Source of the DNA: an uncultured bacterium
GTDB taxonomy: Bacteria; Cyanobacteriota; Vampirovibrionia; Gastranaerophilales; Gastranaerophilaceae
Assembly: GCA_949300485.1 (NCBI GenBank)
Contig: CASGEL010000006.1
Span: 62,001 to 126,000, forward strand
Reading direction: 5' to 3'
Length of the DNA: 64,000 bases
Each line of letters opens with the position of its first letter. Position 1 is the stretch's first letter. The position numbers and the translations under genes were made by a program. This document shows positions 47,569 through 49,725 of this stretch, in pieces. The notes under the pieces were generated by a model, which saw only the letters and a program-made list of their open reading frames with translations, was not told the origin of the DNA and did not search any database.

Positions 47569-47609
47569 TATAATCTGACTAGATTATTTTGAAAGGGAGA
47601 TAATTGATT

Positions 47610-48230
47610 ATGTTGGATAGTATTTTAGCAGGTTTAATTAGTTGGATAGAAAGTGTAATAACAGCGATGGGACCTTCTGGGATAGCATTGTTGATGGCTA
47701 TAGAGTCATGCAATATTCCGTTGCCGAGCGAAGCTGTTTTGCCTTTTGCAGGGTATTTGGTTTCTAAAGGAGAGATGGGCTTTCACACTGCAGCAATTGC
47801 CGGTGCTATAGGGTGTGTGATTGGTTCTATTCCTTCTTATTATATTGGTTATTTCGGTGGAAGAAAGTTTGTAGAAAAATATGGTAAATATTTTTTAGTT
47901 TCAAAAAAAGATCTTGAGGTAGCTGATAAATGGGTTGAAAAATATGGGGATTGGGCATTTTTCTTATGTCGAATGCTTCCTGTTGTAAGAACTTTTATAT
48001 CGTTACCTGCAGGTATATTAAGAGCCAGAAAAAGAATTTTCTTTCTATTGACTTTTTTAGGCTCACTTGTTTGGAGCTATGTATTGGTTTATGTCGGAGT
48101 AAAACTTGGGGAACATCTGGATAAACTAAAGAGTATTTGGCATAAATTTGATGCTGTTATAATTATTGTTTGTTTAATATTAGGCGGAATTTATGTTTGG
48201 AAGCATGTAAAGCATCTGAAAGAGTCTTAA
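47610..48230 (+). CDS. DedA/SNARE-associated family membrane protein
   Basis: 206 residues from ATG 47610, with AGGGAG upstream. Four to five membrane helices. Family features: IPLPSEAVLPFAGYLVS, the GxxxGxxxxYYIGYFGGR segment and FLCRMLPVVRTFISLPAG. DedA proteins are thought to flip phospholipids or undecaprenyl phosphate across the inner membrane. It stands before the prepilin-like gene with a 49-base gap. Substrate not identifiable from sequence. Confidence 0.9.
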   Translation: MLDSILAGLISWIESVITAMGPSGIALLMAIESCNIPLPSEAVLPFAGYLVSKGEMGFHTAAIAGAIGCVIGSIPSYYIGYFGGRKFVEKYGKYFLVSKKDLEVADKWVEKYGDWAFFLCRMLPVVRTFISLPAGILRARKRIFFLLTFLGSLVWSYVLVYVGVKLGEHLDKLKSIWHKFDAVIIIVCLILGGIYVWKHVKHLKES

Positions 48231-48279
48231 TAATGTTGATTAATTTATTTAAATAGGTTGTAAAAATAGGGAGATTATT

Positions 48280-49094
48280 ATGCTGAAACTCATTCATAGG
48301 CTGAAAATGGGGGGCTCTTAAAGCTTTGTTGCAGTGCTTTTTGGAGAAAGTTTTATTGTAGGAAGGCTGCTTTTACTTTAGCCGAAGTATTAATAACACT
48401 TGGTATAATTGGTGTTATTGCGGCTTTGACGATTCCGGGGTTAATTTCTAAATGGAGTGAAAAGGCAACTGTTGCACAGGTTAAAGAAACCTATTCTATT
48501 TTACAGCAGGGACTTCGTCGAGCAATCGATGAGTATGGAGATGTTTCTAGTTGGTGTAATGTTTCTTCCGGTTATGATGAATGTTCGCAAACAATGTTTA
48601 ACAACCTGAGTGCAACAACCAGAATGTCTCCTTGTGGGGTACATAAATGTTTTTCCTCTGGTCAGTCATATAAGAATCGTTTTGGAAAAAATAATATAGC
48701 TGTTGCAGCCAATAGTTCTTATGCAATAGCAGTGTTAAATAACGGAACAACTATTGCTATTAAAGCAGGTAATGGTGACGGGTATGTTGATTGGTGGTGT
48801 AGAAGTGGCTTAAATACTACTAATGGTGCAGCAAGGTATCAAGGGTCATGCGGGCGTATTACAGTTGATTTAAATGGCAAGTCCGGTCCGAATACCGATG
48901 GGCGTGATGTTTTTGAATTCGTGATTTATGATGACGGACTTGCTCCTAAAGGGGTAAAGCAAGATGTCGTATGGACAGAATCCTTTAAAAATCAATGTAT
49001 GGGCCAGAGTTGGAGTGGAGTTGGCGGATGTACCGGCTGGGTTGTAATTAATGGTAATATGGATTATTTGCATACAGACAATCTTGATTGGTAG
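48280..49094 (+). CDS. Prepilin-like gene split at a G6 tract (possibly phase-variable)
   Basis: ATG 48280 has GGGAG upstream and encodes MLKLIHRLKMGGS, then stops at 48319. In the next frame, open from 48300, the chain continues LLKLCCSAFWRK...RKAAFTLAEVLITLG, a complete prepilin signal with Glu5, and runs about 230 residues more to 49094. The switch falls at a run of six G (48309-48314). One added G would join the two frames into a protein of about 271 residues. No ATG, GTG or TTG exists in the pilin frame before 48426, which lies inside the hydrophobic segment. The body carries DLNGKSGPNTDGRD, as in the prepilin at 3391. It is either phase-variable, a pseudogene or a sequencing error. Confidence 0.7.
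48309..48314 (+). repeat. G6 homopolymer at the frame break
   Basis: Six consecutive G in an otherwise AT-rich region. Exactly one inserted base here restores the prepilin reading frame. Confidence 0.75.
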
Positions 49095-49098
49095 TATT

Positions 49099-49725
49099 TT
49101 ATAATTTTTGAGAATGACAGTCTGTACCGCCGGTTTTTATAAGATTATATTTATCTGCAATTTTTTCAATATCCTCAGGTGAGGAAAATTTGATATATTT
49201 TCTCCATCTTGGATATGGGTAATAAACTTCTATGCCGTCAAGACCAATATCAATCAAATCCTTTATAAATTTTTCAAGATTAAGCGCCCAACAGCAGCAA
49301 GGATGAGCAAGAACAGCAATGCCGCCTGCAGAATGGATTGCTGTTATCAATTCTTTTATATTTCTTTTTGCAAAAAATCTTACGATATCCATTTCTGTTC
49401 CTCGTTTGTCTTTTGCATAAAATTTTTGCATTTCTTTGTTATTAATATCAATTCCATAGGCTAATAGATGTAAAAAGATATATTTATACCAAACATCAAA
49501 TTCAACACCCGGGATTGCTATAGTTTTGGGATTGTCAATATAACCTTGGACTGTGTTGTGATCTGTTATAGAAAATATTTTGTAACCTTTATCTTTTATA
49601 GCTTGTTCTTCTATAGAATTAAAAGAGGCTTCTCCATCAGAATATGTTGAATGAATATGCAGGTTAACTCTGTTAGTTATATAATCTTCTTTTTCTATAG
49701 ACTCTATAAGTTTTTTGTAATTCAT
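49099..49725 (-). CDS. PHP-domain phosphoesterase
   Basis: 208 residues. The metal ligands of the PHP fold are visible: HIHST, SITDHNT, a GVEF glutamate region, AHPCCCWA and the terminal TGGTDCHS. Such proteins hydrolyse phosphate esters (histidinol phosphate, 3',5'-bisphosphates, RNA/DNA ends) with a trinuclear metal site. The RNase AM/YciV group is the nearest match by motif, but a general assignment is safer. It is convergent with the prepilin gene (stops four bases apart) and divergent from the gene at 49794. Confidence 0.85.
   Translation of the reverse strand: MNYKKLIESIEKEDYITNRVNLHIHSTYSDGEASFNSIEEQAIKDKGYKIFSITDHNTVQGYIDNPKTIAIPGVEFDVWYKYIFLHLLAYGIDINNKEMQKFYAKDKRGTEMDIVRFFAKRNIKELITAIHSAGGIAVLAHPCCCWALNLEKFIKDLIDIGLDGIEVYYPYPRWRKYIKFSSPEDIEKIADKYNLIKTGGTDCHSQKL

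Follow-up and report, generated by a model that had tools for sequence, protein, structure and literature searches.

The window, a stretch of 64,000 nucleotides, is part of the genome of a Gastranaerophilales (Melainabacteria) bacterium, an uncultured gut relative of cyanobacteria, and it carries a type IV prepilin gene whose reading frame is separated from its start codon at a run of six G. On balance, comparisons of related genes favor the reading that this gene belongs to a Gastranaerophilales prepilin family with a G-homopolymer phase switch, and that the window copy is an off-register, slow or locked-off member of it. In such a family, a start codon and short leader would be joined to the prepilin by a G homopolymer, slipped-strand gain or loss of G at replication would shift the leader into or out of frame with the pilin, and each pilin could thereby be switched on or off at translation. 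All comparisons are between species or paralogues, with one genome per species, and cover 46 congeners, 383 genomes of the family and, for the longest string searched, 84,980 species. The window's genome is denoted G000, L-numbers are loci, and g2 and g17 are other genera of the family.

The broken prepilin frame of the window

The locus consists of the following elements (positions in the window):

47604–48230, forward strand: dedA-family gene, which in relatives directly adjoins the PHP gene
48268–48273, forward strand: Shine-Dalgarno-like AGGGAG, identified from the sequence, preceding the leader start ATG at 48280
48280–48321, forward strand: leader open reading frame, MLKLIHRLKMGGS and stop, homologous to the congeners' poly-G leaders MLKLNNIKKF-GGG
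48300–49094, forward strand: prepilin frame, open over 264 codons and a stop, with no usable start
48309–48314, forward strand: G6 tract, what is left of a longer G run followed by TAACC, and the register point between the leader and prepilin frames
48372–49091, forward strand: body of the mature pilin, which follows the prepilin peptidase site A|FTLAEV
49099–49725, reverse strand: PHP-type metal hydrolase gene (name inferred from sequence), the far border of the gained interval

The initial annotation described a leader with a good ribosome site that stops early and a prepilin in another frame with no usable start, and both descriptions proved accurate. The leader MLKLIHRLKMGGS runs for 13 codons from its ATG to the TAA at 48319–48321. 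The prepilin frame begins at 48300 after the TAG at 48297–48299, reads ...GGLLKLCCSAFWRKFYCRKA|AFTLAEVLITLGIIGVIAALTIP... and closes with the TAG that ends at 49094. There is no in-frame ATG, GTG or TTG between 48300 and 48426, and the earliest is the TTG at 48426, within the mature pilin; an internal or non-ATG start was rejected, since none lies in frame ahead of the mature pilin. The prepilin frame and the leader are offset by one base, placing the break at the G6 tract as had been proposed. Here the 0-frame codons are GGG GGC, and the heptamer G GGG GGC occupies 48309–48315. Taken alone a G6 run is unremarkable (1 observed in the window versus 4.3 expected from shuffles); what goes beyond chance is where it lies and how often relatives repeat the architecture with longer runs, and because of this recurrence we rejected a chance origin of the tract. 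Promoter-like sites were at chance level. A one-base assembly or consensus error in the G run is very improbable, for although homopolymers are error-prone, six G is short for such errors, the closest paralogue, whose tract is interrupted and not a homopolymer, has that register as well, and so do dozens of genes from assemblies made independently.

The body has the type IV cleavage and N-methylation motif followed by a hydrophobic helix, matches TIGR02532 (NCBIfam) at 19.3 bits, above the cut-off of 16.3, and PF07963 at 21.1 bits, just below the cut-off of 21.2, and is 38–45% identical to the congeners' full-length prepilins. An AlphaFold model of low confidence (mean pLDDT 64) contains a helix at residues 2–56, the long N-terminal helix of pilins, and this helix is all that the model adds, as a structure search with it returned no match with E below 0.6. 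Pilus assembly machinery is encoded in the same genome, with four strong matches to T2SSE-family (PilB/PilT-type) ATPases and a single A24 prepilin peptidase-like open reading frame (G000:C6:3162-3599), a weak match of 19 bits below the Pfam cut-off. An A24-like open reading frame of about 370 codons is conserved across the genus; the weak match recurs in nearly all congeners, and on that ground we rejected a missing prepilin peptidase. In most of the genus this A24 homologue has diverged strongly.

Origin and fate of the window copy

Many prepilins of the window's genus have no start codon in the pilin frame and follow a common architecture: a Shine-Dalgarno sequence, an ATG, 8–10 codons, 7–12 G and TAAC, followed by the pilin in a different frame. 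Across relatives' leaders overall, tracts span 7–14 G. The string GGGGGGGGTAAC has about 180 matches in 15 of the 46 congeners, versus 1 for a reversed control, and where the downstream gene could be resolved it is mostly a prepilin, with a few secreted proteins. Within the family the string occurs in 50 of 383 genomes, with up to 53 copies per genome. The longer string GGGGGGGGTAACYTTTTAA has 52 matches among the 84,980 species, all in Melainabacteria assemblies or in records, one of them labelled Muribaculaceae, most of whose contigs coincide in length with searched genomes of the genus, and no other lineage was found. JAMPCZ (G014, L331–L382), labelled Muribaculaceae, belongs to the window's genus of Gastranaerophilales, and its contigs frequently end at a G-tract leader. 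Secreted proteins also occur behind such leaders: L006 (G000:C15:33965-33974), in the window's own genome, is a G10-TAAC leader before a long protein with a Sec signal, and similar G10–12 leaders precede secreted proteins in G010, G001, G004, G003 and G040, some in and some out of register.

The window leader aligns with the G10 leaders of L014 (in G044) and L178, and its apparent membership of the family rests on this homology and on the shared architecture. L014 reads ATGCTGAAACT...G10TAACCTTTTAAAGC and the window ATGCTGAAACT...G6CTCTTAAAGC; nine bases are absent in the window, a loss that took the tract down from the G10 form to G6. In the Campylobacter phasome of poly-G/C phase-variable genes, seven G is the working limit (PMC6321876). 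Six G lies under this limit, and under the minimum of at least seven G inside a 5′ reading frame for an active poly-G switch, so fast switching is unlikely at the window copy, which is probably locked off or slow in its off register. The initial proposal of a phase-variable pilin therefore needs to be divided. It holds for the family, in which tracts are longer and register differs between close paralogues, and it does not hold for the window copy as an active switch, given its shortened tract and the state of its only close paralogue.

This sole close paralogue (G000:C11:4926-5660) is 79% identical; its tract, GGGGTGGGGG, is interrupted, its register is one base short like that of the window, and its body contains a nonsense codon. 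A protein scan of genome contigs with the window pilin found no relative, hence no second strain. Between the two bodies dN/dS is 0.15 (bootstrap 0.10–0.22), and the pilin was therefore under purifying selection for most of the pair's history. The window copy is perhaps still usable as a recombination donor.

The gap between dedA and PHP is 3–124 bp in many congeners versus 871 bp, including the prepilin, in the window; since the two genes adjoin in relatives, the window prepilin lies within a gained interval. A poly-G prepilin stands immediately behind dedA in G039, and other prepilins lie in about 1 kb between dedA and PHP in G044 and G005, so that together with the window they mark a recurrent gain site. 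Across the genus this interval (48231–49098 in the window) has repeatedly gained prepilin genes, sometimes with regulators. In the nearest relatives the gene is missing from this locus.

The absence from the nearest relatives, the shortness of the tract, the damaged paralogue and the presence of GGGGGGGGTAAC only once in the window's genome would all suit plain decay, in which a lineage that has lost most of its poly-G prepilins retains the window copy as a dying duplicate whose frame break has no regulatory meaning. We consider decay improbable, as the body is stop-free over 264 codons with a low dN/dS, and the register breaks exactly at the family's tract rather than at random. The initial annotation had counted uniform six-G reads with orthologues that are also broken toward decay; the part on orthologues holds to some extent, but bodies are intact in the relatives that are broken, so decay is not the whole story. 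As regards the window copy alone, decay overlaps with the preferred reading of a worn member of a phase-variable family.

Register across the genus and its sisters

The strongest support for phase variation comes from sister genera with longer tracts. In three genomes with G11–13 (G085 and G279 in g2, G165 in g17), 9 of 26 prepilins, one third, are in register, register being read from the longest frame that stays open behind the tract, with a few truncated loci at contig ends uncertain; the state often differs between paralogues that are 84–95% identical. Among G165 paralogues that are 84–98% identical, three with G11 are in register and six with G12 are out; G085 has G12 in register (2) and G13 out (6), and G279 contains G11, G12 and G13, with 4 in register. 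Tract length thus differs among related copies such that register changes, which is seen at the level of the family only. Replication slippage would be expected to give one third in register, with bodies intact whatever the register, and slippage of this kind may be reversible. Long G runs in short-read assemblies may be off by one base, and PCR stutter can add or remove a base; one-base assembly errors could mimic part of the mixed registers at G11–13, but not the constancy at G8–10.

This constancy is found in the window's own genus, where tracts are short, mostly G8–10. Among 87 scored prepilin tracts, 65 are one base short, 17 one base long and 5 in register (p about 1e-15 versus equal thirds), these tallies coming from subsets of fetched loci picked mainly via the TAAC string; a separate search gave few extra G6–G7 tracts. 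Counting closed frames, bodies reach at least 150 aa in 4 of 5 in-register genes, 60 of 63 that are one base short and 16 of 16 that are one base long. Lengths do vary within genomes, with G8 and G9 in G039 and G9, G10 and G11 in G043, and the lone in-register members (L150 and L139, G9 among G8 in G039; L188, G10 among G9 in G043) match a default off state from which genes rarely switch. In G039 (C1–C15; L131–L154, L392–L406) the 27 GGGGGGGGTAAC sites are all on one strand, the prepilins of that genome without the string are on both, and GC skew in the tract flanks is mostly positive on the tract strand.

Against phase variation, a freely slipping tract should not hold one register for so long while leaders diverge, as the excess of one-base-short genes indicates it has. 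Most of the 65 such genes place TAAC 37 or 40 nt (1 mod 3) from the ATG, even though leader nucleotide identity falls to about 68% and substitutions shift where the G run begins and ends (29+8 in G039; 28+9 in G045 and G043; 31+9 and 30+10 in G044). Only two tracts were seen to be interrupted, and each retains the −1 register. A register that persists despite diverged leaders is not predicted by free slippage, and programmed −1 frameshifting or transcriptional slippage is therefore a serious rival, one that we regard as possible rather than probable. Here the ribosome would shift by −1 on G GGG GGG (in the window copy, G GGG GGC), or a G would be added by RNA polymerase, and the one-base-short register would be the functional one, at least for the short-tract set of the window's genus.

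Bacterial −1 programmed frameshifting uses X XXY YYZ sites, and a slippery heptamer of this type lies at the frame junction in the window (G GGG GGC) and in its short-tract relatives (G GGG GGG). Apart from the constant spacing, slippage in expression would account for the kept purity of the G runs, for a window loss relative to L014 that is a multiple of three, for the −1 register of both interrupted tracts and for the low dN/dS of the body. However, the 17 genes in the opposite register and the 5 in register also mostly have intact bodies, close paralogues in the sister genera mix registers at one third, and interrupted tracts are poor slip sites. No stable RNA structure was found 3′ of the tract in the window (z −0.32) or in five relatives (−0.65 to 0.45), and a downstream structure was rejected as a frameshift stimulator; its absence is compatible with both −1 frameshifting and transcriptional slippage. 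The pattern resembles known −1 frameshifting in its out-of-register join on a G heptamer and in a −1 relation that is mostly constant in the window's genus, and differs from it in that no stimulatory structure was found and that registers vary at random in sister genera.

Either short tracts hardly slip and the off state is favored, or genes work in the one-base-short register as it stands, by way of −1 frameshifting or transcriptional slippage. A bolder and rather doubtful version of the latter would have the pilin repertoire of gut Melainabacteria expressed only via −1 slippage on the G run, in translation or transcription, with the one-base-short register selected in the short-tract clade and a heritable phase switch in the longer-tract sister lineages; if true, it would connect programmed frameshifting with phase variation in evolution.

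Relation to known switches

Host-adapted Proteobacteria provide the best-known cases of simple-repeat phase variation, and Neisseria varies its pilin through pilE/pilS and switches pilC by a poly-G tract. The Gastranaerophilales family resembles these systems in that expression of a type IV pilin would vary and intact silent copies exist; it differs in that its tract is part of the prepilin leader and that no gene conversion was seen. A closer parallel is Opa of Neisseria, a multigene surface family in which CTCTT repeats in the leader-coding region turn each gene on or off independently by frame (PMC3960869). Both are multigene families of surface proteins with a repeat in the leader-coding region of each gene. 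In contrast to the Opa pentamer and its outer-membrane adhesins, the repeat here is mononucleotide G, the products are pilin subunits, the hosts are Melainabacteria and one register is kept in the window's genus. As in Campylobacter, reading frames contain G tracts, and their lengths are similar; unlike there, one architecture recurs on up to dozens of prepilins per genome, and the window tract is below the limit. The family probably works like the Opa leader switches, while the window copy most likely does not switch fast any more.

In the open-access literature we found no paper joining Gastranaerophilales with phase variation and, for Melainabacteria with phase variation, only a survey of flagellin diversity. 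That dozens of prepilins in a genome carry a poly-G leader, in a non-photosynthetic and uncultured sister group of cyanobacteria that lives in guts, could mean that pilus composition varies from cell to cell, and the constant register of one genus sets a heritable switch against an expression-level frameshift in a testable form. Two further repeat features were observed. Dispersed repeats (CHPELDSGS-like and GATHV-like) occur in the spacers that separate the mature pilin from the tract or start at L010, L029, L030, L076, L080, L295 and L318, with repeat-bearing spacers of up to about 160 aa in genus g2, and in the window's genome a G8 run lies in a large, repeat-rich, adhesin-like open frame (L001, G000:C1:104985).
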